This document shows positions 7,058-47,863 of a stretch of 54,334 nt of DNA, piece after piece. The translations under genes were made by a program, and so were the position numbers. The notes under the pieces were generated by a model. The model worked only from the letters and a program-made list of their open reading frames with translations. It searched no databases and was not told where the DNA came from. Every line of letters starts with the position of its first letter. Position 1 is the first letter of the stretch. The stretch lies in NCBI RefSeq assembly GCF_015665295.1, contig NZ_JADFAJ010000020.1, positions 1-54,334 of the forward strand, in the 5' to 3' direction. This DNA is from Maricaulis sp. GTDB taxonomy: Bacteria > Pseudomonadota > Alphaproteobacteria > Caulobacterales > Maricaulaceae.

Positions 7058-7072
7058 TCGAACAATGTTCAC
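7058..7072. promoter_or_regulatory. Putative operator, copy A of GTGAACNNNGTTCAC
   Basis: The perfect core GAAC-AAT-GTTC (7060-7070) lies between the P450 start and the divergent SDR start. Read on the minus strand, the 13 bases GTGAACATTGTTC are identical to the site before the ferritin-like gene at 47849. It is flanked by GTCAAA (7050-7055) and TTTGAC (7074-7079), giving an outer, slightly off-centre dyad. The size and symmetry fit a TetR- or MarR-type dimer; the cognate regulator is not visible in the window. Confidence 0.6.
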
Positions 7073-7195
7073 GTTTGACGTTAGGGCGGGCCGGGACAGT
7101 GTGGCAAGCGAAGTTCGCGCCGCGGCAGAGAATGAAGTTGTGTCGGCGGCCGTCCCGCGCTTGTCTGTCCGGGCAACAAGATGGGGAGACAGGAC

Positions 7196-8173
7196 ATGGC
7201 CATATCCGACCAGGTACCGACACAATCGGGCTTTCATGCCAAGAGCAGCGGTGCAGAGGTGCTCGCCGACATCGATTTGGCGGGCAAGTTCGCCATCGTC
7301 ACTGGCGGCTATAGCGGGATCGGCCTGGAAACCGTGCGCGCCCTGGCGGCCAAGGGCGTCTCCGTCCTGGTGCCGGTCCGGTCGCCGGAAAAGGCGGCTG
7401 AAACGCTGGCAGATGTTGCGGGCAATGTGACAACAGCCGCGATGGATCTCGCGGACCTGGCCTCGGTCCGGCGCTTTGCCGCCGACATTCTTGAGACGCG
7501 CGCTTCGATCGATCTCCTGATCAATAATGCCGGTATCATGGCCTGCCCGGAAGCGCGGGTCGGGCCGGGCTGGGAATCCCAGTTCGGCATCAATCACATG
7601 GGCCATTTCGCGCTGACCCAGGCCTTGATGCCGGCACTGACCTCAAAGCCTGGCACACGGGTCGTGGCGCTGTCCTCCACCGCACACAAGATTTGCGGCA
7701 TTCGCTGGGACGATATCCAGTTCACCGACACGCCCTATGACAAATGGCAGGCCTATGGCCAGGCTAAGACCGCCAATGCGCTGTTCGCCAATGCCCTGTC
7801 CCGCCGTTTCAAGGCGAGTGGCGGCGCGGCCTTTGCGGTTCATCCGGGCGGGATTTTCACGCCGCTGCAGCGCCATCTGCCGCAGGAGGAGATGATTGCG
7901 CTGGGCTGGCTCGACGAGAATGGCGAAATGTCGGAATTGGCCAAACAGGGCTTCAAGACGCCGGAGCAGGGCTGTTCAACCACGCTGTGGGCCGCCAGCT
8001 CGGCCCTGTTGGACGGCAAGCCGGGCGTCTATTGCGAGAATTGCGACATCGCCGCGCCGACCAACCCCGACAGCCCGCTCGCCCGCTATGCCGGCGTTGA
8101 CGCCCATGCCTGCGATGACGAGGCGGCAGAGCGCCTGTGGACGGTGAGTGAGACGCTGCTGGCGGAGGTGTGA
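7196..8173 (+). CDS. SDR family oxidoreductase (retinol dehydrogenase/WWOX-like)
   Basis: A 325-residue classical short-chain dehydrogenase of the larger retinol-dehydrogenase-like subgroup. IVTGGYSGIGLETV is the cofactor motif, LLINNAGIMACP the NNAG motif, VVALSSTAHK the catalytic Ser, and YGQAKTAN the Tyr/Lys pair. HPGGIFTPLQRHL follows, as usual for this subgroup. Start at 7196 is fixed by GGGGAG 8 nt upstream. It is divergent from the P450 and shares its operator-containing promoter region, so it may oxidise the alcohol produced by that P450. That link is inferred from position only. Confidence 0.88.
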   Translation: MAISDQVPTQSGFHAKSSGAEVLADIDLAGKFAIVTGGYSGIGLETVRALAAKGVSVLVPVRSPEKAAETLADVAGNVTTAAMDLADLASVRRFAADILETRASIDLLINNAGIMACPEARVGPGWESQFGINHMGHFALTQALMPALTSKPGTRVVALSSTAHKICGIRWDDIQFTDTPYDKWQAYGQAKTANALFANALSRRFKASGGAAFAVHPGGIFTPLQRHLPQEEMIALGWLDENGEMSELAKQGFKTPEQGCSTTLWAASSALLDGKPGVYCENCDIAAPTNPDSPLARYAGVDAHACDDEAAERLWTVSETLLAEV

Positions 8174-8262
8174 GAGACGGTCGCCGGACGTGAATTCAAC
8201 CGTAAGCGCCCAGGACGCGTGGAACGGTAGTCGTGCCTGGTCTTCCAGTTGCCTCGCGTCGC

Positions 8263-9417
8263 CTATTCGGCGGGCGGCTCGCTGAGATCGGGTACTGTGA
8301 CTGCCATCGCGCAGCCGGTCTCGTTCGCCAGCACGCAGGCGAAGTAGGCGCGTAGCCTCGCTTCCATCGCGTCCGGGGTCGTATGACCGATACCGGGCAG
8401 GAGGAGAGAGTTGAAATCCTCCATGCCGAAGTCCGAGTAGATCGCGCGGACGGCCGGCACACGGGCGATGGTTGAAGCACCGAGCGTTTCATTTACCCAG
8501 ATGCTCTGCTCACAATCATAGCTGTCGGACCGGAAATTCTCGCAGGTGAAGGGCGGCTCCCGCACTGAATCGTTTTCGTCACTGCCGCCCTGGAACAGCA
8601 GAAAGGGCGTCTCGCGCAAGGCGGCGCCATTCAGAGGGCGGCCGGAAACCTGCTCGAGGTCGGCAATGCCGACCGGATAGGCCAGGCTTTCGCCATCATG
8701 GGTCTCGACGGGCAGGATGGGCAATCCACCAACCCCGCCAGCGGCGACCGCCCGCACGCGCTCGGGATGAAGGACCGTCATGCGGGTTACGAAATCCGCC
8801 GCCGCGGAAAAGCCCCAGAAGAGCGCGTCGTCGGAGAGCTGATGGCCGTTGGATGCGAGCTTGGCCCGGGCGTCATCCAGCATCGCCAGAATTTGAAGAT
8901 CCGGACGGGCATACCGTCCATCGGCGTGCGTCATCGTCGGAAGGGTCAGGGCATGGATGTAGAGATTGCCGCCGATGCCTTCGACCAGCGGTCGCGGGAA
9001 GACCGGGGTCAACATCGGGGTGCCGAGATGGCGGCCGAAATCGAAATACAGCTGCTCGTTTCGGATCGCGGCCCAGTATTCATGCGTTTCAAACGGGGCG
9101 CCGGGCAATCCGTCATTATTGGGCTGGACCAGAACGGCGCCGTCCGGGGCGACGGTCTCGGGCAGGAGCAAGAGGTAGGGCCAGTGAAAGCCCAGTTCGG
9201 GATTGGCCTCGATACGATAGACCTGCCTAGGCTCAAGGACACCCTCATAGACATGCAGTTCGGGGGCGGGGCCGACAATCTCGCTTATATGATCGGGAAT
9301 GCGTGAGCTTGGATCCATGGAGACCCGAGCACGAGGATGATAGCCGTCCCCCTCTTGGGCAAAGGTGCAGTCAAGTCCCGCGAGAGCGATCAGAAGTCCT
9401 GCAAGAAATCGTGCCAT
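8263..9417 (-). CDS. Secreted alpha/beta hydrolase-like protein
   Basis: A 384-residue protein with an N-terminal signal peptide (cleavage probably near TFA-QE, residue 20). The C-terminal part has hydrolase-like elements: FWGFSAAADFVTRM resembles a nucleophile elbow of GxSxxA type, TPFLLFQGGSDENDSV supplies a plausible Asp strand, and LLPGIGHTTPD a plausible catalytic His. Cys residues near 290 and 350 could form disulfides. No specific family name is recognised; PHB-depolymerase-like or carboxylesterase-like enzymes are candidates. AGGGG precedes the ATG. It is transcribed in the same direction as the tRNA upstream but 170 bp away, so probably from its own promoter. Confidence 0.65.
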   Translation of the reverse strand: MARFLAGLLIALAGLDCTFAQEGDGYHPRARVSMDPSSRIPDHISEIVGPAPELHVYEGVLEPRQVYRIEANPELGFHWPYLLLLPETVAPDGAVLVQPNNDGLPGAPFETHEYWAAIRNEQLYFDFGRHLGTPMLTPVFPRPLVEGIGGNLYIHALTLPTMTHADGRYARPDLQILAMLDDARAKLASNGHQLSDDALFWGFSAAADFVTRMTVLHPERVRAVAAGGVGGLPILPVETHDGESLAYPVGIADLEQVSGRPLNGAALRETPFLLFQGGSDENDSVREPPFTCENFRSDSYDCEQSIWVNETLGASTIARVPAVRAIYSDFGMEDFNSLLLPGIGHTTPDAMEARLRAYFACVLANETGCAMAVTVPDLSEPPAE

Positions 9418-9588
9418 CTACATACCCCTTTGCATACACGACGCTTGTATCGCAGGTCGTTGTCAGACGAAAGCGGACCGGTCCCCTATCTACAACGCTT
9501 GGCAAATTCGGGCAGCAAACTGCCGGCATTCGGCCAGCGCGATTTGCCGATTCTCCCTGAACCGGTAAAACGTCAACACGTAAGGTAG

Positions 9589-9679
9589 TGGCGGAGAGGA
9601 TGGGATTCGAACCCACGGTACGCTTTTGGCGCACACTCCCTTAGCAGGGGAGCGCCTTCGACCACTCGGCCACCTCTCC
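9589..9679 (-). tRNA. tRNA-Ser (GCT anticodon)
   Basis: On the minus strand, GGAGAGG (9679-9673) pairs with CCTCTCC, followed by discriminator G and a genomically encoded CCA at 9591-9589. The anticodon arm is CTCCC-CTGCTAA-GGGAG, with anticodon GCT at 9645-9643, reading AGC and AGT serine codons. A long variable arm (GTGTGCGCCAAAAGCGTAC) and the T-arm GGGTTCGAATCCC are typical of tRNA-Ser. No integrase gene or repeat of the tRNA 3' end was seen nearby, so there is no sign that it serves as an integration site. Confidence 0.97.
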
Positions 9680-9770
9680 ACTGACCGGTTTAGAATGCGG
9701 CGGCGCGGGCTTCAAGTGCGAGCTGCCGCAATTCGTGGGCGGATTGCAGAGACATGGCCCTGGCGATTGC

Positions 9771-10505: not shown

Positions 10506-10599
10506 GTTGTCCCCCCTGCCAACCCCACCGGTTTAAGCGAGAGGGTTGCAGGGGGCAAGACAGCGCGTCTGACGGGAGCGCCCTGAGGTTTGGTCGATC

Positions 10600-11820: not shown

Positions 11821-11942
11821 GATGTTTCCGTCCCCTCGGGCGTCTTTGCGTTTCGCTTTATTGCCGGATTAGCCGGGCGGGAAGCGCGGAGCAAGCCGCC
11901 GGAGCGGTTCGGCTTGGCGTGGTATCGCAAACACGGCTAGAG

Positions 11943-11962: not shown

Positions 11963-11996
11963 ACGACTCTGAACGACGTCATTCGGGGAGGGATGC

Positions 11997-20954: not shown

Positions 20955-21044
20955 TTTCAACCATGGACCTGACCCCGGTTCGGCGCTAGCGTCTTCGCAA
21001 GTGCATCATACCGAATGCTCGATAAAGTCGATAAAGGGGAGATC

Positions 21045-22211
21045 ATGTCCGATCTGGAAAGCTTCCGCGAAGAAGTCCGGGACTGGCTTGAGGCCAATTG
21101 TCCCGAGGAAATGCGCCGGCCCATGGAAAGCGAGGCCGACGCTGTCTGGGGTGGCAAGAAGGGGCAATACTCAGAACCGCAAAAGACCTGGCTGGAGCGG
21201 ATGGCGGCCAAGGGCTGGACGGTTCCGGAATGGCCGACCGAATATGGCGGCGGCGGTCTTTCCAAGGAGGAAGCCAAGGTCCTGCGCGCGGAAATGCAGC
21301 GCATCAAGGCGCGCTCGCCGCTGCAGTCCTTCGGGATATGGATGCTTGGGCCGGCGCTGTTGAAATTCGGCACGCACGAGCAGAAACTCGAGCATCTTCC
21401 CCGCATCGCCCGTGGCGAAATCCGCTGGGCACAGGGCTATTCCGAGCCGAACGCCGGCTCCGATCTGGCAGCATTGATGACCAGGTGCGAGGACAAGGGC
21501 GATCACTACCTGATCAACGGCCAGAAGATCTGGACCTCCTACGCCGATCAGGCCGACTGGATCTTCGCGCTGGTCCGGACCGATTTCGAGGCCAAGAAGC
21601 ATGAAGGCATCTCCTTCATCCTCGTCGACATGGACCAGCCGGGCGTCACCACGAAACCGATCAAGCTGATTTCCGGCAAGTCACCCTTCTGCGAGACCTT
21701 CTTTGATGATGCGAAGGCGGAAAAGCGCAATGTGGTTGGCGAGCTCAACAAGGGCTGGACCGTCGCCAAATACCTGCTCACCCATGAGCGCGAAATGATT
21801 GGCGGCATGGGATCAGGTGCCATGCGCCCGGCTGGCGATGTGGCCGTGCAAATGCTCGGCAAGGACGAGCAAGGCCGTCTCGCCGACCCGCTGCTGCGCA
21901 CCGATATCGTGCGCCTGGAAATCGACGGGCTCGCCTTCATGTCGACGATGGAGCGGGTTCTTGACGAGGCCAAGGCCGGGCAGGGGACAGGCGCCAATTC
22001 CTCGGTCCTGAAATACTACGGCACCGAGCTCAACAAGCGCCGCCTCGAACTGATGATCGACAGTGCCGGCCAGGACGGGCTGGAATGGGGAGCGGATGAT
22101 GATGTCGCGGCCACATGGCTGCGCACCAAGGGCAATTCGATCGAGGGCGGTACGTCCGAGGTCCAGCTCAACATCATCTCCAAACGCATTCTCGAATTGC
22201 CGTCGGCCTAG
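21045..22211 (+). CDS. Acyl-CoA dehydrogenase, catalytic-type subunit of a pair
   Basis: A 388-residue acyl-CoA dehydrogenase. AQGYSEPNAGSDLAAL gives the conserved EPxAGSD flavin/substrate loop, and GQKIWTSYADQADWIF follows. Near the C-terminus SIEGGTSEVQLNIISKRIL has Gly where medium-chain enzymes have the catalytic Glu of YEGTSQ, with Glu one residue earlier. This arrangement is seen in the FadE subunits of heteromeric steroid-type dehydrogenases. GGGGAG precedes the start at 21045. The next gene, 27 nt downstream, encodes a degenerate partner. Together they probably form an alpha2-beta2 enzyme that desaturates a bulky or branched acyl-CoA. Confidence 0.88.
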   Translation: MSDLESFREEVRDWLEANCPEEMRRPMESEADAVWGGKKGQYSEPQKTWLERMAAKGWTVPEWPTEYGGGGLSKEEAKVLRAEMQRIKARSPLQSFGIWMLGPALLKFGTHEQKLEHLPRIARGEIRWAQGYSEPNAGSDLAALMTRCEDKGDHYLINGQKIWTSYADQADWIFALVRTDFEAKKHEGISFILVDMDQPGVTTKPIKLISGKSPFCETFFDDAKAEKRNVVGELNKGWTVAKYLLTHEREMIGGMGSGAMRPAGDVAVQMLGKDEQGRLADPLLRTDIVRLEIDGLAFMSTMERVLDEAKAGQGTGANSSVLKYYGTELNKRRLELMIDSAGQDGLEWGADDDVAATWLRTKGNSIEGGTSEVQLNIISKRILELPSA

Positions 22212-22238
22212 ACGCCGCACCACAGGGGAGAGACCATC

Positions 22239-23378: not shown

Positions 23379-23413
23379 TCCGGACCGGAACCAATCCGGC
23401 GGAGGAGAGACGG

Positions 23414-24205: not shown

Positions 24206-24271
24206 GCACGGGGCGCGCCGAACAGAATTCGAAGAACAGTAAAAACGGTTAAAAGATCAAAGGGGAGAGAT

Positions 24272-25501: not shown

Positions 25502-25503
25502 GC

Positions 25504-27677: not shown

Positions 27678-27711
27678 CCGGCACACACCACAATCAGGGA
27701 ATTGAGACGAT

Positions 27712-28632: not shown

Positions 28633-28657
28633 CCCCCAAGACAGGAGACGCCAAATC

Positions 28658-36982: not shown

Positions 36983-37597
36983 TCAGATCAGCCCATACCC
37001 GAACGCCTGACGCTCGTGGTCGAGCAGCCAGCGTTTGCGCCATAGTCCGCCGCCATATCCGGTCAGCGATCCGTCAGCGCCGATGATGCGGTGGCAGGGG
37101 GTGACAATCGCGATCGGATTGGCGCCGTTGGCGCGTGCGACGGCACGGGTTGCTGTCGGTTGGTCGAGCGCTGCGGCCTGTTCGCCATAGCTGCGGGTTT
37201 CGCCGGCCGGAATGGCATGGAGGGCATCCCAGGCGCGCATCTCGAACGGCGTGCCCACCGGCGCACACGGGGTTTCGAACCTCGCTGAGCGGCCGGCGAA
37301 GAATGCCTTCAGCTCGGCGGCCAGTTGTCGGGTCGGCCCGGTGCGCCCGAACGCGATACCTGAATCAGCTGCGCGCTGAAGCTTGATGAGCTCGGTCGGC
37401 AGGAGGCCGCGTTCGAAGAATTCGAGCAGTCGCAGATGCGTGGCGTCGGCTATGGCCAGAAGCGGGCCGACCGGGCTGGGGATCCAGTCGGCCCGGAGGT
37501 TGGCCTCGGAGGGCGGGGTGCCGCCGAGCCGCTTTGCGAACGCCTGCCGGAAACCGGCGTCATCATCAAACAGGGGCTCGGCGTGTTCCGGCTTCAT
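36983..37597 (-). CDS. O6-alkylguanine-DNA alkyltransferase (Ada C-terminal type)
   Basis: A 204-residue suicide DNA repair protein. IVTPCHRIIGADGSLTGYGG contains the acceptor Cys168 and the essential PCHR. The preceding helix-turn-helix (AIPAGETRSYGEQAAAL, ATRAVARANGANP) is standard for AGT domains. SPVGPLLAIADATHLRLLEF is the N-terminal ribonuclease-like domain. The first 30 residues (DDDAGFRQAFAKRLGGTPPS) look like the last helix of an AraC-type HTH, suggesting descent from an Ada-like AraC-AGT fusion that lost its front part. Start at 37597 overlaps the SDR stop in ATGA. Confidence 0.9.
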   Translation of the reverse strand: MKPEHAEPLFDDDAGFRQAFAKRLGGTPPSEANLRADWIPSPVGPLLAIADATHLRLLEFFERGLLPTELIKLQRAADSGIAFGRTGPTRQLAAELKAFFAGRSARFETPCAPVGTPFEMRAWDALHAIPAGETRSYGEQAAALDQPTATRAVARANGANPIAIVTPCHRIIGADGSLTGYGGGLWRKRWLLDHERQAFGYGLI

Positions 37598-38352
37598 CGC
37601 ACGTAGCTGGCACCATTGATGTCGATACAGCTGCCGGTCGCGCTGCGGCAGGCTCCGGAGGCGAGAAAGGCGCACATGGCGGCGATCTCGTCGGGATGGG
37701 CCAGATCGCCGATCGGGATTTCAGCCTTGGCGCGGGCGCGGTCTTCCTCGTGCTGCGGTCCCATGCGGGTATCGATCCAGCCCGGCGCGAGGGCGTAGGC
37801 GTAGACGCCGTCATTGCCCCATTGCCGGGCAATCGTCTTGGTCAGCGACAGGAGGGCGCCCTTTGAGGCACCATAGGCCATGTGATTGCGGTCCTCGCCG
37901 CGATAGCCGGCGCGGCTGGCGATATTGATGATCGAGCCGCCGCCCGAGGCGACCATTTCCGGGATCGCGGCGCGGCAGATATCGGCCACTGCCATCAAAT
38001 TGACCTGCAGCGTTGTCGCCCAGCTGGTTTCCCAGTCCGTATCGGAACTGTCGAGCGGGCTGGCCCAATGGATGCCGGCATTGTTGACGATGATGTCGAG
38101 CCGGCCCGAGGCCAGGTGCAGGGCTGCGTCATATAGGTCTCGGCCGGCGCCGGGCTGCGACAGGTCGGCCTGGACGGCGCCGAGCGCCGCCGGTCCGATG
38201 GCCTGCACGGCGGTGTCGGCATCGGCCATGTTCTGATTGCCGTGCAGGACGACTTCGGCACCCTGGGCCGCGAACATGTGTGCCGCCGCCAGGCCGACGC
38301 CATGGCTGGAGCCGGTGATCAGGGCGCGCTTGCCCGTCAGTTGTCCCGTCAT
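37594..38352 (-). CDS. SDR family oxidoreductase
   Basis: A 252-residue classical SDR similar in style to 3-oxoacyl-ACP reductases. ALITGSSHGVGLAAAHMFA is the nucleotide motif, DIIVNNAGIHWASP the NNAG motif, SIINIASRAGYRG holds the Ser and YGASKGALLSLTK the Tyr/Lys. PGWIDTRMGPQ follows. It is the fourth gene of the leftward operon (serine hydrolase, GMC, ALDH, SDR, AGT), 7 nt after the ALDH stop. A role in oxidising or reducing an intermediate of the same pathway is likely. Confidence 0.88.
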   Translation of the reverse strand: MTGQLTGKRALITGSSHGVGLAAAHMFAAQGAEVVLHGNQNMADADTAVQAIGPAALGAVQADLSQPGAGRDLYDAALHLASGRLDIIVNNAGIHWASPLDSSDTDWETSWATTLQVNLMAVADICRAAIPEMVASGGGSIINIASRAGYRGEDRNHMAYGASKGALLSLTKTIARQWGNDGVYAYALAPGWIDTRMGPQHEEDRARAKAEIPIGDLAHPDEIAAMCAFLASGACRSATGSCIDINGASYVR

Positions 38353-38359: not shown

Positions 38360-39781
38360 CTATTTCATCTGCTTCTTGGCGACGGTTTCGTACATCTTGC
38401 CATAGGGCGGGGCAAGCAGGCGGGAGGGGTGCCACTTGCCGGTGCGGAAGACCGAGCGCTCGTGGCTGAAGGTCAGGAAGCCGGCCTCGCCATGATAGGC
38501 GCCCTGTCCGGATGCGCCGATCCCGCCGAAGGGAAGGTCGGGCACGGAGAGGTGCAGCAGGTTGCTGTTGACCCCGACCCCGCCCGACAATGTGTTGTCG
38601 AGGATCCGGTCGGCCTGGATCCTGTCGGTTGAATAGACATAGAGCGCCAGCGGGTGGTCACGCTCATTGACGAATTCGGTCGCCGCGTCGAGCTCGGAAT
38701 AACCCACCACGGGCAGGATCGGCCCGAAGATTTCCTCTGTCATCAGCCGGCTGTCCAGCGGCGGGTTGAGGACGATGGTCGGCGGAATTTTCCGGGCCGC
38801 CTGGGCGGCCTGGGCATCATGCTTGGGCTGCAGGATTTCGGCGCCGCCGGCGCGCGCTTCCTCGATCATGCCGTTGAGGCGCTCATAATGCCGGTCCGAG
38901 ACAATGGCCGTGTAGGCATCATCGGTCGCGACATCCTTGAACTGGTGCCGGGCGACCTTGATGATTGCCTCGCCGAGCGCTTTTTCGCTGCCTTTCGGGG
39001 CAAGCACATAGTCCGGCGCGACACAGGTCTGTCCGGCATTGAAGAACTTGCCCCATGTGATCGATTTTGCTGCCGAGTCCTGAGGGTAGTTCGGGGTCAC
39101 GATGGCGGGTGACTTGCCGCCCAGCTCAAGGGTGACGGGGACGAGGTTCTCCGCCGCTGCCATGGCCACAAGCCGGCCGACCTGGGTCGAACCCGTGTAG
39201 AAGAGGTGGTCGAATTTCAGTTTCGTGAAGGCCTCGCCGACTGCCGGTCCTCCGGTGATCACGGTGACATGATCCTCCTCGAAAGCGCCGGCGAGGAGCG
39301 ACTTCATGATTTCGGCTGTGGCTGGTGTGTATTCCGACGGTTTGATCATCGCCCGGCAACCGGCGGCCAGGGCCGCGACCAGCGGGGCCATGGCAAGCTG
39401 GAAGGGATAATTCCACGGCGACACGATGCCGACGACGCCCTTGGGTTCGCGGCGGATCGTGGCCGAGCCGGGCATCAGCGTCATCGGAACGCCGACCTTG
39501 CGCGGCTTCATCCATTTGCCCAGATGCTTCCTGGCATGGCCGGCATCCTGGATCACGAAGGCGATCTCGGCGATCACGCTTTCCTGCTTGGCCCGGTTGC
39601 CGAAATCGCGGCTGATGGCCTCGGCGATGGCATCGGCATTCTTGCGACAGAGGTCGGCAACCCGGTCGAGATCGGCCTTGCGCTTGTCGATCGGCCGGTG
39701 GCGCTCGGCGCGGAAAGCGGTCTGCTGGGCCGCCAGAAGGGCCTTCATGCGTTCGATCTGCTTGGCTTCGGCTTCACTCAT
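38360..39781 (-). CDS. Aldehyde dehydrogenase (coniferyl-aldehyde dehydrogenase-like)
   Basis: A 473-residue NAD(P)-dependent aldehyde dehydrogenase of the short class-3/CalB-like branch. IVSPWNYPFQLAMAPLVAAL begins the cofactor site. LELGGKSPAIV has the general base Glu219, and FFNAGQTCVAPDYVL the nucleophile Cys253. EEIFGPILPVVGYSEL and NLLHLSVPDLPFGGIGASGQG are further family stretches. It oxidises an aldehyde to its acid. The gene sits 10 nt after the GMC alcohol oxidoreductase gene, so the pair can turn a primary alcohol into an acid for CoA activation. Confidence 0.93.
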   Translation of the reverse strand: MSEAEAKQIERMKALLAAQQTAFRAERHRPIDKRKADLDRVADLCRKNADAIAEAISRDFGNRAKQESVIAEIAFVIQDAGHARKHLGKWMKPRKVGVPMTLMPGSATIRREPKGVVGIVSPWNYPFQLAMAPLVAALAAGCRAMIKPSEYTPATAEIMKSLLAGAFEEDHVTVITGGPAVGEAFTKLKFDHLFYTGSTQVGRLVAMAAAENLVPVTLELGGKSPAIVTPNYPQDSAAKSITWGKFFNAGQTCVAPDYVLAPKGSEKALGEAIIKVARHQFKDVATDDAYTAIVSDRHYERLNGMIEEARAGGAEILQPKHDAQAAQAARKIPPTIVLNPPLDSRLMTEEIFGPILPVVGYSELDAATEFVNERDHPLALYVYSTDRIQADRILDNTLSGGVGVNSNLLHLSVPDLPFGGIGASGQGAYHGEAGFLTFSHERSVFRTGKWHPSRLLAPPYGKMYETVAKKQMK

Positions 39782-39791
39782 TGTGGCCTCC

Positions 39792-41396
39792 TTACGCGTT
39801 GTCTTCGGCGATCATGGCGGCCGCGCGGGTCGCGATCATGATCGTGGGTGCATTGGTATTGCCGCCGATCAGGCGCGGCATGACGGACGCGTCGATGACG
39901 CGCAGCCCGTCGACGCCGCGAACCCGGCAGCGACTGTCCGTGACCGCCAGCTCGCCTGATCCCATCGCGCAGGTCGAGGTCGGGTGGTAGAGCGTTTCGG
40001 CCCGGGCGCGGACATCATCCCGCAGCCCGGCCATCGTTGTGATATGGGCGCCGGGAAAGCGCTCTTCCTTGCGGTCATGGTCAAATGCCGGCGCGTTGAG
40101 GATATCACGCACCTTGGCCAGGCCGTCCGTCAAGACGTCGAGGTCGAATTCGTCCTCGAGATAGTTCGGCTGGATGGCCGGATGGTCGTTGGGGTCGGTG
40201 CTCTTGAGCGTGATCGCACCACGGCTTCTCGGATAGAGCTGGCAGACATGCAGGGTGACGCCATGCCCGCGAACCTTTTCCATGCCATGGGCATTGGAGA
40301 TCGCGGGGATAAAGACGAGCTGCAGGTCGGGCAGGTCGCCGGCATGCGCCGACTTGATGAAAGCCCCGCCCTGGACCGGATTGACCGTGAAGGGACCATC
40401 GCCGCGCAACGCCCAGCGCGCCACCATGTACATGTGGTGCGGCAGTGATCGTATCGAATTGCCGATCGAGGTTGCCGAATTGGTCCAGACCTGGGCCGTC
40501 ACGTCGAGATGGTCCTGCAGGTTCTTGCCGACGCCGGGCAGGTCTTGCTCGACGCTGACGCCTGCCGCCCGCAACTCGTCGGCCGGGCCAACGCCGGACA
40601 GGAGCAGGGTTTGCGGTGAGTTGATGGCTCCGCCCGACAGAATGACTTCCCTGCGGGCATTCAGGGTGCGGATCTCGCCCTCGATCTCGACCTCGACGCC
40701 GGTTGCGCGGCCATTCTCGATGACCACCCGGTGCACCATGGCGCCGGTCTGGACCGAGCAGTTTTCACGCTCGAGCGCCGGGCGCAGGAAGGCGTCGGCG
40801 GCCGAGCAGCGCTTGCGGCCTTTCTGGGTCACCTGGTAGGGGCCGAACCCTTCCTGGGCCGGGCCGTTGAAATCGTCATTGCGCTTGTACTGCAACTGGT
40901 CGCCGGCCTTGAGGAAATCCTCGGTCAGCGGGTTGAGCGGGGCGATGTCCTGCACCCAGAGCGGTCCGCCCGTGCCGTGCAGCTCGCTGGCGCCGCGCGT
41001 CTGGTGCTGGACTTCCTTGAAGGCGGGCAGGGCGTCCTTCCAGCCCCAGCCTTCAGCGCCATATTCGGTCTCCCACTCGTCATAGTTTTCCGGAGCCCCG
41101 CGCATATAGTGCATGGCGTTGATCGAGGAGGAACCGCCCAGCGTCTTGCCGCGCGGCCACAGCAGCTTGCGGTCGTTCAGCTGTTTTTGCGGTTCGGTCC
41201 AGTAGCCCCAGTTGAACTGCTCGCCGGTGACTGCGTATTGCAGCAGCATCGGCGTGCGGATGATCGGGCTGTTGTCGGTCCCGCCTGCCTCCAGAACGAG
41301 GACCGAGACGGCGGGATCGCGCGACAGCCGCTCGGCAACGGTGCAGCCGGCCGAGCCGGCGCCACAAATGATATAGTCGTAATCCACATTACTCAT
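39792..41396 (-). CDS. GMC-family FAD-dependent alcohol oxidoreductase (choline dehydrogenase-like)
   Basis: A 534-residue flavoprotein. YIICGAGSAGCTVAERLS is the FAD-binding GxGxxG (residues 12-17). LLWPRGKTLGGSSSINAMHY is the GMC signature 1, and EVILSGGAINSPQTLLLSGV the signature 2. The C-terminal active-site His region reads TLYHPTSTCAMG with NTNAPTIMIATRAAAM. Cytosolic or membrane-associated enzymes of this type (AlkJ, PEG dehydrogenase, choline dehydrogenase) oxidise primary alcohols. ATG at 41396 overlaps the preceding serine hydrolase gene by 8 bp (ATGAGTAA) and has GGAGG upstream. Confidence 0.93.
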   Translation of the reverse strand: MSNVDYDYIICGAGSAGCTVAERLSRDPAVSVLVLEAGGTDNSPIIRTPMLLQYAVTGEQFNWGYWTEPQKQLNDRKLLWPRGKTLGGSSSINAMHYMRGAPENYDEWETEYGAEGWGWKDALPAFKEVQHQTRGASELHGTGGPLWVQDIAPLNPLTEDFLKAGDQLQYKRNDDFNGPAQEGFGPYQVTQKGRKRCSAADAFLRPALERENCSVQTGAMVHRVVIENGRATGVEVEIEGEIRTLNARREVILSGGAINSPQTLLLSGVGPADELRAAGVSVEQDLPGVGKNLQDHLDVTAQVWTNSATSIGNSIRSLPHHMYMVARWALRGDGPFTVNPVQGGAFIKSAHAGDLPDLQLVFIPAISNAHGMEKVRGHGVTLHVCQLYPRSRGAITLKSTDPNDHPAIQPNYLEDEFDLDVLTDGLAKVRDILNAPAFDHDRKEERFPGAHITTMAGLRDDVRARAETLYHPTSTCAMGSGELAVTDSRCRVRGVDGLRVIDASVMPRLIGGNTNAPTIMIATRAAAMIAEDNA

Positions 41397-42654
41397 CGTC
41401 GGCCTCCATCTGTTCGGTCTGCATGTCGGGTCGGGTTGCGGCGGGGTCGTCACCATAACGGGCGGCGAGGGCCCGCATGGCGATGATCGACTCTTCCGTG
41501 CGAGCGCCCCAATCCGTGTCGGCGGCGGTGCGGGCGATCACGATATTGCGGCGCTCATCGACCCAGACATATTGGCCGTAGACGCCGGCCATGAAGTATT
41601 CGCCGTCATGGTTTTCCGGCACCCAGAAATGCAGGCCATAGCCACGATGGGCATAGACCGAGTCCGGCCCGGCTTCCTGGAAGGGCGCGTTGGGGCGGGT
41701 CGCCTGTGTGACCCAGCCTTCCGGCAGCAGGCGCTCGCCGTCCCAGATTCCGTCCTGCAGGTAGAACTGACCGAAACGGGCATAGTCCTCAAGCGTCGCG
41801 TTGAGGCAGCAATAGCCAATCGCCATGCCGTTCTCGCCGGGAATATTCTGGTTCCAGTAGGCCTCTCCGGTCATGCCCAGCGGCTGCCATATCCGGTCCT
41901 GGACGATATGGGCGAGGGTGTCGTTATAGACACCGCGCACCACGGCCGAGAGGACCTGGGTGTTGGCGCTGACATAGTGCAGGTCTTCACCCGGCGTCCG
42001 GTTGCGCTCTATATCGGCAACCAGGCGATCGATGTTTTGCCCGTAAATGTTGGCCCCGAGGAAGAGGCGGCGAATGTCTGAATCCGGGGCGTTGTAGTCT
42101 TCCTCGAAATCCATCCCGGCCGACATCATGAGAAGGTGGCGCAACGTGGTGTCGCCGTAATCGCTGCCGCCATATTGCGGCGCGAACATCTCGGCGCTCT
42201 GATCGAGATTGGCGATGCGCCCGTCCTGTATCGCCATGGCGATCAGGGTGGCGACATAACTCTTGCCGACCGACCAGGACGTGTGGCGCGAGCCGGCATC
42301 GGCACCGAGGCGGTAGGCCTCGTACACGACCTCGCCATTGTGCAGCACCATCAGCCCGGTGGTATCGCTGTCCGCCATCCAGTCGTCGACGGTACGATCA
42401 GCACCGCCAAAGCGGTAGCCGACGGCAACCGGTTGAAGGTTTCTCTCCAGATGGGTGGCCGATTCGGATGGGTTTATCGCGCGATAGGGGAAGACGGCCC
42501 CCATGTTGGTGAATGTTTCCACGAGCCGTTCCGGTTGGGTTGCGGCCTGGATTTCAGCCGGCGAATATTCCGACCAGGGCCGATAGAACCAGCCTGCGGC
42601 CGCGAGGGCGCCGGCGCCTAGAATCACGACTAAACCGATGATAAGTTTCTTCAT
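41389..42654 (-). CDS. Serine hydrolase, beta-lactamase class C-like esterase
   Basis: A 421-residue protein with an N-terminal membrane anchor (LIIGLVVILGAGALAAAGWF). The penicillin-binding fold is shown by TSWSVGKSYVATLIAMAI with the SxxK Ser/Lys, DLHYVSANTQVLSAVVRG with the second Tyr motif, and the C-terminal HRGYGLHFWVPEN/YGQYVWVDERRNIVIAR. Relatives include 6-aminohexanoate-dimer hydrolase and esterases rather than resistance enzymes. The anchor suggests a periplasmic active site. First gene of the leftward operon; start at 42654 has GGGGAG upstream. A GTGAACNNNGTTCAC-type palindrome lies 21 nt before it. It may release alcohols that the GMC enzyme then oxidises. Confidence 0.88.
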   Translation of the reverse strand: MKKLIIGLVVILGAGALAAAGWFYRPWSEYSPAEIQAATQPERLVETFTNMGAVFPYRAINPSESATHLERNLQPVAVGYRFGGADRTVDDWMADSDTTGLMVLHNGEVVYEAYRLGADAGSRHTSWSVGKSYVATLIAMAIQDGRIANLDQSAEMFAPQYGGSDYGDTTLRHLLMMSAGMDFEEDYNAPDSDIRRLFLGANIYGQNIDRLVADIERNRTPGEDLHYVSANTQVLSAVVRGVYNDTLAHIVQDRIWQPLGMTGEAYWNQNIPGENGMAIGYCCLNATLEDYARFGQFYLQDGIWDGERLLPEGWVTQATRPNAPFQEAGPDSVYAHRGYGLHFWVPENHDGEYFMAGVYGQYVWVDERRNIVIARTAADTDWGARTEESIIAMRALAARYGDDPAATRPDMQTEQMEADDE

Positions 42655-42675: not shown

Positions 42676-42690
42676 TTGAACGCTGTTCAC
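42676..42690. promoter_or_regulatory. Putative operator, copy B of GTGAACNNNGTTCAC
   Basis: TGAAC-GCT-GTTCA (42677-42689), a perfect 5-bp dyad with 3-nt spacer, in the region between the serine hydrolase operon and the divergent TonB receptor. It is 21 nt upstream of the hydrolase start, almost the same spacing as copy A to the P450, which points to repressor-like control of both. Confidence 0.6.
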
Positions 42691-42901: not shown

Positions 42902-45622
42902 ATGAAGATGTTTTCCAAAGCCGTTGCGATGGGCACGACGGCTATTTTGACCGGGCTGTTTGCGGGTAGCGCAATGGCACAGGTCGACGTGATCACCGTG
43001 ACATCCCAGAAGCGCGAGCAGACGCTTCAGGATACGCCGGTTTCGGTCGCCGTCGTCACCGGTGAACAAATCGAGCAGTCGCAGATTCGCGACGCGGCAG
43101 ACCTGCAGACGCTGGTTCCCGCGCTTCGCGTATCCGAGTTCGCGACCTCAACGAATACGGAATTCAATCTGCGCGGCATCGGTACGTCGAGCTTCAACCC
43201 GGGCCTCGAGCCGTCGGTCGGCGTCTTCATTGACGGCGTTTACCGTCCGCGTTCGGGCTCTGCGATCAACGATTTGATGTCGGTTGAGCGCGTTGAGGTC
43301 ATTCGTGGCCCGCAGTCCACCATCTTCGGCCGCAACACGCCGGCCGGTGTTGTCAGCATCATCACCCAGGCACCGGACTTCGATTTCAACTACGCCGGTG
43401 AAGTGACGGTTGGCAATTACGGCATGCGCCAGGCGCGCGGTACCGTGACGGGACCTCTGACGGACAATGTCGCCTTTCGTCTTGAAGGCAATGTGCACCA
43501 GAATGACGGTTATATTGAGGTCGTTGATGGCCGTGAGGCCAATAATCGCGACCGGATGAGCTTCCGCGGTCAACTGTTGTTCAATCCGAGCGACAATACC
43601 GAGGTCCGTATCATCGCCGATTGGGGTGATATCGACGAGAATTGCTGTGCCGCACCGTTCGCCTTCTATGACCCGATCGACCTCGCGGCGCTGGTCGGAC
43701 TTGGCGGCACGGCCGTGCCGGCTGATCCCAATGGAGGCGACACGATCGCCATCGATGGCGACCTCAACACCCAGCTCGTCACCCAGGGTATCTCTGCCGA
43801 GATCGAGCATGATTTCGACAGCTTCACCTTTACCTCGATCACGGCCTTCCGGAATTACGACGAAGACCAGATTTTCGACGCCGACTTCTCGGATCTCGAC
43901 CTGGTCAGCCTGCGTCATATCGAGAACCAGTATGACAGCTTCACCCAGGAGTTCCGCCTGACCTCGACCGGCGACAACATGGTCGACTGGATGGTTGGCG
44001 GCTTCTACTACAATAACGAGCTGAACTACGACAATTCGACGCCTTACGGCGCCAATGCCCGCGCCTTCTTCGACGCGGCCTCGGCCCCGTCCGTGGCCGA
44101 TCTCGTCGCGTCCTTCGGCCTGCCGGCCGGAACCGGCGGCGTGTCGCTTCTGGAAATTTTCCTCGACATGAACCAGGCTGCCGGTGTGGGCGGTTTCGTT
44201 CCGCTGGCGTCGGGCAATGGCGCCCTGCCGACGAGCCCGACCGAGGGTTTCATTTCGACCCAGCACGGCCTGATTTCGGAAAGCTACCAGTACAACACCA
44301 ATGCCTGGTCGGCCTTCGGTCAGTTCGACTGGCATGTCACCGACCAGTTCACGGTGACACTGGGTGGTCGCTATTCCGACGAAGACAAGGACATGGTAAC
44401 GGCGATCAACCAGCCGGATCCGATGTCGGCCTTCTCCTTTGTTGACCTCGCCCAGGACCTGCGTCTCGTGACGCCGGGCACCTGTGACCCGGGCCTGTTC
44501 CCGGTCATTGGCGGCGACGCCTGTGCCTATCTTGTCCCGGCCATCCTGTTTGGTCAGGCCCAGGCTGAGGCTCTTGGTGGCGATCCGACCCTGCTGAACA
44601 CGCTGGTCGCTCTCGGCATCTCGCCGACTTCGCCGCTCACCGAAGCGCAGGCGTCCAGCCCGGCTCTCAACCCGCTGCTGGGCTTCACCGCCTTCCAGAA
44701 CTTCCCGCCGGTCAATGCGGGCAATTTCCCGACCTCGCGCAACGACACGAATTTCTCGGGCAATATCATCCTGTCCTACGATGTGTCTGACACGCTCAAT
44801 CTCTATGCGAGCTATGCAACGGGCTTCAAGCCGGGCGGTTTCAACGTCTCGACCAATGCCGCCTTCACCGGCGTCTATGAATTCGAGGAAGAGACCTCCG
44901 AGAGCTTCGAGGTTGGTGTGAAGGGCTCGTTTGATGGCGGTCGTTTCGTCTACGCCATGGCCTACTTCAACCAGGAGGTCACTGACTTCCAGACCAACAA
45001 TTTCGTTGGCAACGGTTTCGCGCTCGAGAATGCCGGGTCGATCGAAGTCTCCGGTCTCGAGTTCGAAGGTCAGTGGGCACCGACTGACAACCTGCTCTTC
45101 ACGGGTGGTTTCACCTACCTGTTCGACAGCATCTACGGCGAGTATCTCTACGCGCCTTGCCCGGACAGCTTTGACGCCGCCGACCCGAATTTCGCACTTT
45201 GCGTGCCGGGTGCGGAGCGGACCAATGGCGCTGGTGTCACGGCCCTGTTCAACGATCTGACCGGTCGTGATCGCGGTAATTCGGAGTTCCTCGGGGCTCT
45301 GACCGCGACCTATACCCACCAGGTCGGCGAGGGCATGGAAATGTCCTGGCGTGGTGAGATGAGCCATGTGTCGGAATTCTCCCACACGACCAGCCAGGAT
45401 CCGCGTCCGTTCGCGAATCAGGATGCCTTCCAGCTTTACAATGCGTCTGTGACGCTCGGTGCCGATGACGGTGCCTGGGCCGTGCAGGTGTGGGGCCGGA
45501 ACATCTTTGACGAAAACTACACCAAGGGTGGTTTCCCGTCGGTCGGTTATCTCGGCACCAGCTATAATGCCTATCCGGGTGATCCGCAGACCTATGGTGT
45601 TACCCTGCGCATTCGCGGCTAG
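42902..45622 (+). CDS. TonB-dependent outer-membrane receptor
   Basis: A 906-residue outer-membrane transporter. Signal peptide at 1-26 (LTGLFAGSAMA-QVD), a TonB-box-like segment VDVITVTSQKREQTLQDTPV, plug domain (VSVAVVTGEQIEQSQIRDAA, VEVIRGPQSTIFGRNTPAG) and a 22-strand barrel ending in an aromatic-rich strand with terminal IRG. The sequence QKREQTLQDTPVSV is typical of the large alphaproteobacterial receptor group for complex organic substrates. Two long hydrophobic loops (about residues 395-450 and 520-610, the second with a Cys pair) are unusual. It is divergent from an esterase-alcohol-aldehyde oxidation operon, suggesting import of that operon's substrate. GGGGAG fixes the start. Confidence 0.94.
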   Translation: MKMFSKAVAMGTTAILTGLFAGSAMAQVDVITVTSQKREQTLQDTPVSVAVVTGEQIEQSQIRDAADLQTLVPALRVSEFATSTNTEFNLRGIGTSSFNPGLEPSVGVFIDGVYRPRSGSAINDLMSVERVEVIRGPQSTIFGRNTPAGVVSIITQAPDFDFNYAGEVTVGNYGMRQARGTVTGPLTDNVAFRLEGNVHQNDGYIEVVDGREANNRDRMSFRGQLLFNPSDNTEVRIIADWGDIDENCCAAPFAFYDPIDLAALVGLGGTAVPADPNGGDTIAIDGDLNTQLVTQGISAEIEHDFDSFTFTSITAFRNYDEDQIFDADFSDLDLVSLRHIENQYDSFTQEFRLTSTGDNMVDWMVGGFYYNNELNYDNSTPYGANARAFFDAASAPSVADLVASFGLPAGTGGVSLLEIFLDMNQAAGVGGFVPLASGNGALPTSPTEGFISTQHGLISESYQYNTNAWSAFGQFDWHVTDQFTVTLGGRYSDEDKDMVTAINQPDPMSAFSFVDLAQDLRLVTPGTCDPGLFPVIGGDACAYLVPAILFGQAQAEALGGDPTLLNTLVALGISPTSPLTEAQASSPALNPLLGFTAFQNFPPVNAGNFPTSRNDTNFSGNIILSYDVSDTLNLYASYATGFKPGGFNVSTNAAFTGVYEFEEETSESFEVGVKGSFDGGRFVYAMAYFNQEVTDFQTNNFVGNGFALENAGSIEVSGLEFEGQWAPTDNLLFTGGFTYLFDSIYGEYLYAPCPDSFDAADPNFALCVPGAERTNGAGVTALFNDLTGRDRGNSEFLGALTATYTHQVGEGMEMSWRGEMSHVSEFSHTTSQDPRPFANQDAFQLYNASVTLGADDGAWAVQVWGRNIFDENYTKGGFPSVGYLGTSYNAYPGDPQTYGVTLRIRG

Positions 45623-45636
45623 TGAACGCCGTTCAA
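45622..45636. promoter_or_regulatory. Putative operator, copy C of GTGAACNNNGTTCAC
   Basis: TGAAC-GCC-GTTCA (45623-45635) begins at the base after the receptor stop codon. It lies 67 nt upstream of the next gene (45704), similar to the 69 nt between copy D and the ferritin-like gene, but a strong terminator lies in between. It may be a duplicated site or a regulator-binding element within the unit. Confidence 0.5.
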
Positions 45637-45651
45637 ATAAGCGTATGATTG

Positions 45652-45689
45652 CGGGCGGGGGCCATTGGCTCCCGCCCGTTTTCGTTTGT
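45652..45689 (+). terminator. Terminator after TonB receptor
   Basis: CGGGCGGGGGCC (45652-45663), loop ATT, GGCTCCCGCCCG (45667-45678): a 12-bp stem with one G-T pair, followed by TTTTCGTTTG. Confidence 0.9.
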
Positions 45690-45703
45690 GGCGGAGCTGT
45701 TTG

Positions 45704-46147
45704 ATGGGACTGATATTCCTGATCATCGGATCGATCCTTGGCGTCAGCGCCATGGTATTTTTCAATGCGCGCCTCGGCATCAGCCCGCAGGCCAGGCTGT
45801 CGGGACTGGACGAGGCGATTGCGCGCCTCGATGCCGACCGGGTCGGCTTCGAGGCCGGTGAGGCTGTGCTTGCCGCGGATGGCGAGGGCGCTCTGGTTGC
45901 GTCGCGCTCCGGGGACTGCCTGGGGCTTCTGGTCGCGCGCGGCAGTGATTTCGTGATCCGCTATCTCACGCCCGGCTCAGTGCGTGAGGTGAGACTTGAT
46001 GATGCCGGCGAGGCGGGCGGCGCCGGCTTCCGGTTTCGACTGAATGATTTCGTCTTCGCGCCGGCCCATCTGCGATTTGACGATGCCGAGACGGCGGCCC
46101 GCTGGGCCGACCGCCTGTCCGGCCTCACGCAGGGAGGTCAGGCATGA
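45704..46147 (+). CDS. Single-pass membrane protein of unknown function, 147 aa
   Basis: A 147-residue protein with one N-terminal helix (GLIFLIIGSILGVSAMVFF) and a cytosolic or periplasmic domain rich in strands (GALVASRSGDCLGLLVARGSDF, VIRYLTPGSVREVRLDDAG, FRFRLNDFVFAPAHLRFDD). No family recognised. Start at 45704 has GGAG upstream; the longer frame runs into the terminator. Its stop overlaps the ATG of the sterol-desaturase-family gene (ATGA), so the two are translated as a pair and may act together at the membrane. Confidence 0.65.
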   Translation: MGLIFLIIGSILGVSAMVFFNARLGISPQARLSGLDEAIARLDADRVGFEAGEAVLAADGEGALVASRSGDCLGLLVARGSDFVIRYLTPGSVREVRLDDAGEAGGAGFRFRLNDFVFAPAHLRFDDAETAARWADRLSGLTQGGQA

Positions 46148-47085
46148 CCATCCAGGTTCCCGCCTTTGTCGAAACCCTCGACCCGATAACGCTCGCCATT
46201 CCCTTCTTCACGCTCTCGGTCTTTGCCGAGATGATTCATGCCCGCCTGACGAAGAAGACGCGCTTTGAGACCCGCGACACCGCAGCCAGCCTGATTATGG
46301 GGCTTGGCAACAATATTTCCTCGATCATCTTCGGCCTGTTGCTGGGCGGCTGGTCGGTCTTCGTCTATGAGCACCGGCTGATGGATATCTCCTTTGCCTG
46401 GTGGGTCTGGGTGGTCGCGATCTTCCTCGATGATTTCCTGTATTACTGGTCGCATCGCTTCGCCCACACCGTGCGCTGGTTCTGGGCCGACCATGTCGTC
46501 CACCACTCCTCCCAGCACTACAATCTGACCACCGCCCTGCGACAGCCCTGGCTGAGCCCCTTCACGCTGAAATTCATGTGGCTGGGATCGGCGATGGTGT
46601 TTGTTGGTTTCCACCCGGCGATGGTGGCCTTTGTCGGCGCACTCAATCTGATCTACCAGTTCTGGATCCATACCGAGGCGATCAAGCGTTGCCCGGCCTG
46701 GTTCGAGGCGATCTTCAACACGCCCTCGCACCACCGCGTCCATCACGCCACCAACCCGCTCTATCTCGATCGCAACTATGCCGGCATTTTCATCATCTGG
46801 GACAAGATGTTCGGCACTTTCCAGCCCGAGCTGGACGAGGAGCCCTGTCGCTACGGCATCGTCAAGAATCTCGGCACCTACAATCCGATCAAGATCTGCC
46901 TGCATGAATGGCTGGCCATCGTGAAGGACATGGCGAGCGCCAAATCGATCAGGCATGCCGCGCTCTATTTGCTCGCCCCGCCCGGCTGGTCGCCGGACGG
47001 ATCGCGCGAGACGTCCAGGCAGATTCTGGCGAAGTGGGAAGCGCGGCAGGCTGAAAAGCCGGACAAGGCCGAGGCGGCGGAATAG
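46144..47085 (+). CDS. Sterol desaturase/fatty acid hydroxylase-family enzyme
   Basis: A 313-residue integral membrane diiron enzyme of the fatty acid hydroxylase superfamily. Histidine clusters are H104RFAH108, H117VVHH121 with SSQH, and SHHRVHHATN late in the protein. Hydrophobic helices at about 15-30, 55-75, 83-100 and 150-170 fit the family. Members hydroxylate or desaturate sterols, sphingolipid bases, carotenoids or fatty acids using molecular oxygen. The bacterial substrate cannot be read from sequence. It is coupled to the preceding small membrane protein by an ATGA overlap. No obvious T-tailed terminator follows; repeated palindromes begin 20 bp after the stop. Confidence 0.87.
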   Translation: MTIQVPAFVETLDPITLAIPFFTLSVFAEMIHARLTKKTRFETRDTAASLIMGLGNNISSIIFGLLLGGWSVFVYEHRLMDISFAWWVWVVAIFLDDFLYYWSHRFAHTVRWFWADHVVHHSSQHYNLTTALRQPWLSPFTLKFMWLGSAMVFVGFHPAMVAFVGALNLIYQFWIHTEAIKRCPAWFEAIFNTPSHHRVHHATNPLYLDRNYAGIFIIWDKMFGTFQPELDEEPCRYGIVKNLGTYNPIKICLHEWLAIVKDMASAKSIRHAALYLLAPPGWSPDGSRETSRQILAKWEARQAEKPDKAEAAE

Positions 47086-47104
47086 GGCCTGTTCTCCTTT
47101 TCCG

Positions 47105-47268
47105 CCCCCCATCGTGGGGAGGTGTCGCGCCCGAAGGGCGGGACGGAGGGGTGACGCCGAAGGCGGCATTTGGCCCTCCTTGCTTGTGGCCCTCCTCGCT
47201 TGCGCTCGACCCCATCGCCCCTCCTTCGCCAAGGCTCCGGAGGGCCACTTCCCCACGTCGTGGGGAAG
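47105..47268. repeat. Intergenic palindromic repeat element 1
   Basis: An approximately 164-bp unit bounded by CCCC-ATCG-TGGGG (47107-47119) and CTTCCCCACG-T-CGTGGGGAAG (47248-47268). Inside are CGCCC-GAA-GGGCG and several CCCTCC/GGAGGG pairs. The style matches non-coding palindromic repeats common between genes in alphaproteobacteria. Open frames through it on both strands are repeat read-through, not genes. Confidence 0.65.
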
Positions 47269-47302
47269 AAAAGGGAGAGTTTATCCCGTTTGTGCAGCCC
47301 GT

Positions 47303-47404
47303 CCTTCTCCCTTGGGAGAAGGTGGCCGGAGGCCGGATGAGGGGGAAAACGCCCGCTGGCACCGGGATTTACCCCTCACCCTGACCCTCTCCCAAGGGAG
47401 AGGG
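47303..47404. repeat. Intergenic palindromic repeat element 2
   Basis: An approximately 102-bp unit whose two ends are related palindromes: CCTTCTCCCTTGGGAGAAGG (47303-47322) and CCCTCTCCCAAGGGAGAGGG (47385-47404). The middle contains GGCC-GGA-GGCC. This looks like a small non-autonomous element. It is placed end to end with element 1. Confidence 0.7.
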
Positions 47405-47500
47405 AAAGCGGTTGCGACAGGAAAATCTGCCAAACTTATCCTCCCCCTCCAACGCCGGGCGATAATGCCCTCGGTTTTCGGGACGGGAGGCGCGAGCTCA

Positions 47501-47550
47501 GTCACTTGTGCCCGGAAACGAGCGGAGCCTGTCCGCGTCTCGGGGGTGAC
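47501..47550. other. Imperfect long hairpin, structured block part 1
   Basis: GTCAC (47501-47505) pairs with GTGAC (47546-47550); inside, CCCGGAAACGAGCGGA (47511-47526) pairs imperfectly with TCCGCGTCTCGGGG (47532-47545). The 47405-47500 stretch before it shows no gene or feature. Confidence 0.4.
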
Positions 47551-47624
47551 AGCCCGAAACTCCGGCAGGGCCTGCGAACCGGTCCCGGGGCATTAAACGA
47601 CCGACCCCATGTACCGGCCGCATT

Positions 47625-47789
47625 GGAAACGGGGTGGAGACAGCCCGGGAAAACTCCGCGAGCGGGATGCCGAGGACACCACGGACACCGCAGACCAGCC
47701 AAACGGACACCCCGGTGTCCGCCGGCATTCCGCTCCCTCCTGTCTCCGGCGCTTCGCGCGTGCGGAGCCGGACGGCGTGCCATGTTTCC
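47625..47789. ncRNA. Candidate structured RNA or cis-regulatory element
   Basis: Nested long-range pairings: GGAAAC (47625-47630) with GTTTCC (47784-47789); GGAGACAG (47636-47643) with CTGTCTCC (47740-47747); GAGCGGGATGCCG (47660-47672) plus GGACACC (47674-47680) with GGTGTCC (47714-47720) plus CGGCATTCCGCTC (47723-47735), about 20 bp with one wobble. Two more GGACACC copies (47683-47689, 47705-47711) can replace the first, the last forming a local hairpin. It ends 143 nt before the ferritin-like gene. No known riboswitch or housekeeping RNA was recognised; strand is undetermined. Confidence 0.35.
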
Positions 47790-47848
47790 CCGATCACAAT
47801 TCCGGATTCCCCCTTGCCAAAAACGGGAAAATGACTCACGTTTGTGTT

Positions 47849-47863
47849 GTGAACATTGTTCAC
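47849..47863. promoter_or_regulatory. Putative operator, copy D, perfect GTGAAC-ATT-GTTCAC
   Basis: The best copy of the motif: 6-bp perfect arms with ATT spacer, 69 nt upstream of the ferritin-like gene. Its first 13 bases are identical to the minus-strand sequence before the P450 gene. Confidence 0.65.

Follow-up and report, generated by a model that had tools for sequence, protein, structure and literature searches.

A conserved palindrome before efflux and oxidation genes of Maricaulis, the probable operator of a TetR-family repressor

In Caulobacter crescentus, the TetR-family repressor TipR is encoded beside the resistance-nodulation-division (RND) pump AcrAB-NodT, responds to several diverse inducers and occupies four chromosomal sites according to chromatin immunoprecipitation sequencing (PMC10754441, in the part of the paper available). 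Here we describe a palindrome, GTGAAC-RNY-GTTCAC, with AAA favoured before it and TTT after it, found in a 54,334-nucleotide (nt) stretch of DNA from Maricaulis sp. This stretch, called the window, is the whole of contig C21 in a genome of 3.16 Mb and 44 contigs. Judging from sequence, the palindrome is probably the operator of one TetR-family repressor, encoded on contig C25 (the C25 TetR), which would control genes of efflux and oxidation. TipR/AcrAB-NodT is the nearest described system that we found, compared by gene order and operator with the available part of that paper (PMC10754441). As there, a TetR gene lies beside an RND pump in an alphaproteobacterium, and the TipR inverted-repeat half, TGAGAATGAAC, ends in TGAAC, as the arms of the Maricaulis palindrome do. 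However, the TipR half-site continues as TGAGAA-, which is absent from the Maricaulis palindrome, and tipR and acrAB-nodT are divergent and have one operator in common, whereas the C25 tetR and the adaptor gene are co-directional with the site between them (upstream of tetR at locus L329). The other TipR sites given there (djlA, ccrM and the qor-rho gap) also differ from the Maricaulis oxygenase set (PMC10754441).

The C25 TetR was also compared with other known TetR repressors. Its profile matched the structure 2w53, deposited as "REPRESSOR" and presumably SmeT, with E 3.9e-10, a family-level match only to SmeT-type RND repressors; the best match in the PDB was 3he0 (E 4.7e-14). The lipid-sensing PsrA, FadR of Bacillus and KstR gave weak matches to the C25 TetR, 24-26 bits against curated cut-offs of 200-300 bits. 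Like theirs, the Maricaulis targets are partly lipid-acting by family: a fatty-acid hydroxylase, an alkylsulfatase-like candidate, an acyl-CoA thioesterase in relatives, and an acyl-CoA dehydrogenase preceded by a MerR gene in the own genome. Unlike them, the C25 TetR is linked to exporters, not to a beta-oxidation operon. Among the matches listed in a literature search for spellings of the 13-base motif, in the parts of the sources available, only a paper on Corynebacterium biotin uptake appeared, an unrelated subject; none of the matches listed for the C25 TetR dealt with this protein.

The earlier note on this DNA had reported four copies of a dyad with the core GAAC-N3-GTTC. All four are present at the positions given, and they are the only such cores in the window (at 7060, 42678, 45624 and 47851). 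The full sites are as follows.

7058..7072, no strand: site A, TCGAACAATGTTCAC, two mismatches to GTGAACRNYGTTCAC, 25 nt upstream of the cytochrome P450 start
42676..42690, no strand: site B, TTGAACGCTGTTCAC, one mismatch, 21 nt upstream of a PF00144 hydrolase, with a divergent TonB receptor on the opposite side
45622..45636, no strand: site C, GTGAACGCCGTTCAA, one mismatch, overlapping the TonB receptor gene by the final base of its stop codon; the open reading frame (ORF) 45704 starts 67 nt downstream
47849..47863, no strand: site D, GTGAACATTGTTCAC, a perfect match; the diiron gene starts 69 nt downstream

The description of the copies as perfect dyads holds for the inner GAAC/GTTC; over the full 15-mer it holds for D alone. 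The 13 identical bases ascribed to A and D are found if A is reverse-complemented. The four distances to gene starts agree with the called starts; the longest ORF of the hydrolase after B begins further up, within the site itself, with a GTG at 42690. As had been claimed, none of the other operons of the window is preceded by a copy: its intergenic DNA holds no fifth site, even with two mismatches allowed. The four cores compare with a mean of 0.60 in shuffled sequences, and 1 of 100 shuffles reached four. When up to two mismatches are allowed over the whole 15-mer, four matches compare with 1.40 expected. Because 5 of 100 shuffles also reached four such matches, the window alone is weak evidence.

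The frequency of the motif, one of the refuting conditions named in the earlier note, was determined in the whole genome, with the reversed pattern as a control that retains base composition and palindromy, not dinucleotides. Exact copies of GTGAACRNYGTTCAC number three, against none of the reversed pattern (distances to tolC, the RND adaptor and the C10 tetR in this genome run from the 13-mer core).

Site D, in the window
C7:40259, before a tolC homologue (TIGR01844) at a distance of about 150 nt
C25:22822, in the gap between tetR and the RND adaptor gene, about 58 nt from the adaptor start

Nine more sites have one mismatch and 21 have two. The total of 33 exceeds the 20 of the control only slightly, so that the two-mismatch list is largely noise, and we rejected it as a description of the regulon. 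One two-mismatch site, C2:171987, was retained beside A: it precedes a second RND adaptor gene whose homologue in genome G036 has an exact site. The nine one-mismatch sites include B and C, and those on C9, C15, C18 and C43 lie at genes that recurrently bear sites in five other Maricaulis genomes. The remaining three are without such backing and were set aside. These are C5:77306 (no gene start near), C14:60234 and C2:195998. The match at C14:60234, together with a two-mismatch match at 60942 (L052), falls inside a hybrid histidine-kinase gene and was taken as chance. The C2:195998 site (L048) lies about 12 nt upstream of the alkylsulfatase-like gene; this gene was not recognised beside the sites with at most one mismatch that were read in the five other Maricaulis genomes. 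The site C25:28604, before a nitronate monooxygenase gene, has one mismatch to the 13-mer and three to the 15-mer; the homologues of that gene in G036 and G046 have exact sites.

In relatives the signal is much clearer. The exact GTGAACRNYGTTCAC was found in 30 of 59 sampled genomes of the family and the reversed control in 0 of 59; the five other Maricaulis genomes hold 52 sites with at most one mismatch, against 0 for the control. The spacer is RNY in the tetR-linked sites, and all four window sites conform. In 110 unique exact sites, a set that includes loci chosen through their proteins, A is commonest at the three preceding positions (50-62%) and T at the four following ones (51-59%). Not one of these 110 lies inside a called gene.

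The earlier note had found no recognisable regulator in the window. This was right, since the likely one is encoded on another contig.

G000:C25:22854-23501 (L047:4355-5002): TetR-family protein of 215 amino acids (aa), beside an RND adaptor and transporter

Its helix-turn-helix matches PF00440 with 48.4 bits (cut-off 24), and its C-terminal part matches TetR_C_33 with 29.7 bits, just above the cut-off of 26.8; in a scan against NCBIfam no model reached its cut-off. We counted as orthologues TetR matches of at least 45% identity, a line set at a gap (the next best by score order has 27%). Orthologues occur in 28 of the 59 family genomes. It turned out that all 28 also carry the exact site, against 2 of the 31 genomes that lack the TetR (G023 and G048), so that both occur in 28 genomes, the TetR only in none, the site only in two and neither in 29 (Fisher p 8e-15, uncorrected for phylogeny). 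The single site of G048 may be a chance occurrence. In a class-wide sample, a TetR match of E 1e-20 or better was found in 3 of 190 genomes, the own one included.

The site is also physically linked to this gene. In 23 of the 28 orthologue loci, a site with at most two mismatches lies no more than about 250 nt from the 3' end of the matched tetR; the control gave 0 of 28. A TetR gene preceded by the site had been proposed as the thing to look for. In the own genome the exact site follows tetR, in the gap before the adaptor gene; the expected arrangement is seen in L329, from another family of the order. There, the TetR is 43% identical, and the gap between tetR and a divergent gene holds a perfect site, 27 nt before tetR; tetR, the adaptor gene and the start of an RND-like gene are co-directional, their ends overlapping or touching. 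This is the autoregulatory place expected of a TetR and, as far as sequence can tell, the strongest single pointer to binding of the palindrome by the C25 TetR. In ten aligned orthologues the DNA-binding helices are nearly invariant and the C-terminal part drifts. These helices are unlike those of three other TetR proteins of the own genome. The gene divergent from tetR at L067:759-1268 belongs to the nitroreductase family, as do, by eye, the genes at many of the loci L066-L092. The gene L329:2328-2909, on the other side of the perfect site, resembles it.

The note had also proposed that conservation in relatives be examined; each of the four window sites was found again ahead of orthologous genes. 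Of 80 named loci, 49 have site D with at most one mismatch within 300 nt before the diiron gene, and none has the control. The 31 misses comprise 25 loci of Marinicaulis, Parvularcula, Parvularculaceae or Amphiplicatus, which we take to be one family, five labelled Alphaproteobacteria, and Marinicauda pacifica (three mismatches). Site D is likewise present in 25 of the 26 TetR-bearing genomes of the family sample whose diiron gene could be read; the G054 copy is cut and stands outside the 26. In the 200 nt before the hydrolase gene, 18 of the 23 orthologue loci that bear the TetR have site B with at most two mismatches, and two more have three mismatches; the control was found in 0 of 24. This count omits homologues of at most 36% identity. 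Site C is kept with at most two mismatches upstream of the ORF 45704 equivalent in eight of nine testable Maricaulis-type loci (L155-L170), the ninth having three. It is kept even where the preceding receptor is only about 35% identical, and thus goes with the unit of ORF 45704 and the fatty-acid hydroxylase. Site A recurs at the same position in G026 (two mismatches) and G056 (one mismatch). Among genomes with a nearly full-length P450 homologue, a site with at most two mismatches precedes it in 3 of 3 that bear the TetR and 0 of 5 that lack it. The two P450 pieces of G027 are incomplete and were left out, and the conservation of site A rests on three genomes. Chance is already a poor explanation for sites B, C and D. 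Genome G003 retains the diiron and hydrolase genes without a C25-type TetR, and both genes are without their sites.

We also determined which other genes follow the site. The 52 exact sites examined are the listed family sites minus those taken as tetR or diiron sites, plus six loci from the search; the places of G052 beyond two, later genomes and the second site of G023 are outside this set. None of the 52 lies inside a called gene, and one has no called gene near. For annotation, one member per cluster was scanned or matched to a scanned gene of the own genome. Beside the diiron gene, the targets met most often in relatives are tolC and the RND pump linked to the TetR. An exact site precedes tolC in at least 15 genomes, as it does in the own genome, and a flavin-binding monooxygenase (FMO) gene in at least 11; the own genome showed no FMO site. 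Further exact sites precede a gene for a major facilitator superfamily (MFS) transporter with a divergent glycosyltransferase gene (at least three genomes), penicillin-amidase-like genes (at least three), Coq4-like genes (at least three), nitronate monooxygenase, thioesterase and esterase-type hydrolase genes (at least two each) and the second RND adaptor gene (at least one). In the five other Maricaulis genomes, sites were found at tolC and at the MFS/glycosyltransferase pair in all five, at FMO, a PF10118 homologue and the MerR gene in four each, and at a ferredoxin gene in three. The site in L352 appears to be inside a gene because the gene caller chose a longer ferredoxin start.

The window genes associated with the four sites are listed below.

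5650..7032, minus strand: cytochrome P450, 460 aa, PF00067 (site A)
7196..8173, plus strand: short-chain dehydrogenase divergent from the P450, possibly also controlled by site A
37594..38352, minus strand: short-chain dehydrogenase, likely in the hydrolase operon by position
38360..39781, minus strand: aldehyde dehydrogenase, likely in the hydrolase operon by position
39792..41396, minus strand: GMC oxidoreductase, overlapping the hydrolase gene and in the same operon by position
41389..42654, minus strand: PF00144 serine hydrolase (beta-lactamase/esterase fold), first gene after site B
42902..45622, plus strand: TonB-dependent receptor, 906 aa, its gene divergent from that of the hydrolase; whether site B, 211 nt away, controls it is uncertain
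45651..45679, plus strand: terminator-like hairpin between site C and ORF 45704
45704..46147, plus strand: protein of 147 aa without a Pfam match, first gene after site C
46144..47085, plus strand: fatty-acid-hydroxylase-superfamily protein, PF04116, overlapping ORF 45704
47933..49024, plus strand: AurF-like ferritin-fold diiron protein, 363 aa, PF11583 (site D)

Apart from one alphaproteobacterium, the closest named relatives of the diiron protein, with 87-98% identity, belong to Maricaulis; the protein occurs in 29 of the 59 family genomes, and the window P450 in 9. The hairpin after site C has a stem of 13 pairs. By eye, it is strong in 8 of 10 loci folded (the window, L158, L160, L161, L163, L164, L169 and L170), and L166 and L167 have weaker stems only. 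Terminator-like sites in the scanned stretch number 4, against 5.0 in shuffles. Little room is left for a promoter between the hairpin and ORF 45704. A search for sigma-70-like promoters found none at B-D and one in the scanned stretch, inside the receptor gene (1.2 in shuffles). With the hairpin in this place, site C may act via a leader, read-through or a roadblock and not at a plain promoter; an attenuator-like leader, or dependence on read-through, is possible for the hydroxylase unit.

Several observations weigh against control of all these genes by the C25 TetR through the palindrome. The co-occurrence of TetR and site partly tracks phylogeny. Genome G023 has a perfect site at its diiron gene and a second perfect site without a TetR orthologue; its best TetR match is a paralogue in a beta-oxidation-like cluster with no site of at most two mismatches beside it, and the TetR-bearing G035 shares this cluster. 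Five of the 28 TetR genomes (G036, G013, G045, G035 and G053) lack a site beside tetR. No adaptor-like gene was called after tetR in these five, nor in G004 and G006 among the 23 loci with the site; adaptors in relatives were judged by position and sequence start, the own adaptor alone being scanned, and the gene caller, trained on the own genome, misses genes in low-GC relatives. The TetR of L330 (33% identity) has no site. The diiron gene of G030 has a match with three mismatches only, the sole exception among the 26, and the hydrolase genes of the TetR-bearing G007, G024 and G054 are without a site. Finally, site A with its two mismatches is weak by itself, and the hairpin makes simple promoter repression at site C uncertain.

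The sites, their conservation and intergenic position, the linkage to tetR and the co-occurrence were computed. From these we infer binding, repression, the class of ligand and the physiological role, as follows. A TetR dimer on the dyad near each promoter would block transcription. An inducer, probably hydrophobic, would release it, and the RND pump, the TolC outer-membrane channel, the MFS exporter, and the oxygenases and hydrolases would then be turned on together, including the four transcription units of the window. The shared operator and regulon proposed in the earlier note are backed by conservation and co-occurrence.

The function proposed there fared less well: a catabolic regulon devoted to a single substrate, which would induce its own uptake by the TonB receptor and its stepwise oxidation. 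The window genes alone would make a plausible oxidation set (P450, GMC oxidoreductase, aldehyde dehydrogenase, short-chain dehydrogenase, fatty-acid hydroxylase and diiron protein). However, the conserved targets are not confined to one pathway: they include tolC, the second RND adaptor, the MFS transporter, FMO, hydrolase and MerR genes, and few partners are shared more widely than the pump and tolC. The P450 is far rarer in the family than the exact site, and site C persists beside a distant receptor. We therefore consider a one-substrate pathway unlikely and an efflux-plus-oxidation regulon the better description; the target set would fit a response to many hydrophobic compounds better than one to a single substrate, although the cell may also catabolise the inducer.

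Less probable still is that the operators are real but bound by another regulator, for example the second TetR_C_33 protein, encoded on C10, with the C25 TetR merely a neighbour. The sites of G023 would suit this. In addition, the C10 tetR has a degenerate site (three mismatches to the 15-mer) about 28 nt upstream, and its G026 homologue has a one-mismatch site 85 nt upstream. We considered this protein and did not favour it: its recognition helix differs (SVGSIYKLF versus SPAAIYKYF in the C25 TetR), and the co-occurrence counts, the 23 linked loci and the L329 site point to the C25 TetR. The second TetR_C_33 regulator (L058:2279-2920; L339) may itself be a target, which would give a two-layer network. 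Chance palindromes, or an RNA hairpin or terminator element, would agree with the shuffles of the window and the small two-mismatch excess in the own genome, but are hardly credible given the zero counts of the control (exact in 59 genomes, one mismatch in five) and the sites kept at orthologous promoters while their spacer varies.

If the C25 TetR binds the palindrome, its physiological role can be suggested only tentatively. In Maricaulis and related bacteria, a single TetR sensor may couple export (RND, TolC and MFS), "phase-I-like" oxidation (P450, FMO, nitronate monooxygenase, the AurF-like diiron protein and fatty-acid hydroxylase) and hydrolysis in a lineage-wide response to xenobiotics or lipids, the sites being lost with the sensor. 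In that case, the AurF-like diiron protein would be an undescribed detoxifying or envelope-lipid oxygenase. For a gene set of a marine bacterial family that is otherwise unlinked, the analysis provides a probable regulator, an operator and a target list; it would tie oxygenases and efflux into one response and gives a functional handle on the diiron protein. The type of regulator is ordinary: on this evidence, the regulon is new and the kind of regulon already known.

Two other gene groups of the window were noted. Positions 21015-29632 hold a row of genes that includes acyl-CoA dehydrogenase and AMP-binding ligase members and, by eye, short-chain dehydrogenases, with no intergenic site of at most two mismatches. 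At 49990-54334, a gene for a RamB-like regulator (NF038139, below cut-off) is divergent from that of isocitrate lyase, and the next gene resembles malate synthase by eye. This glyoxylate-shunt cluster follows the diiron gene in several named Maricaulis loci as well.

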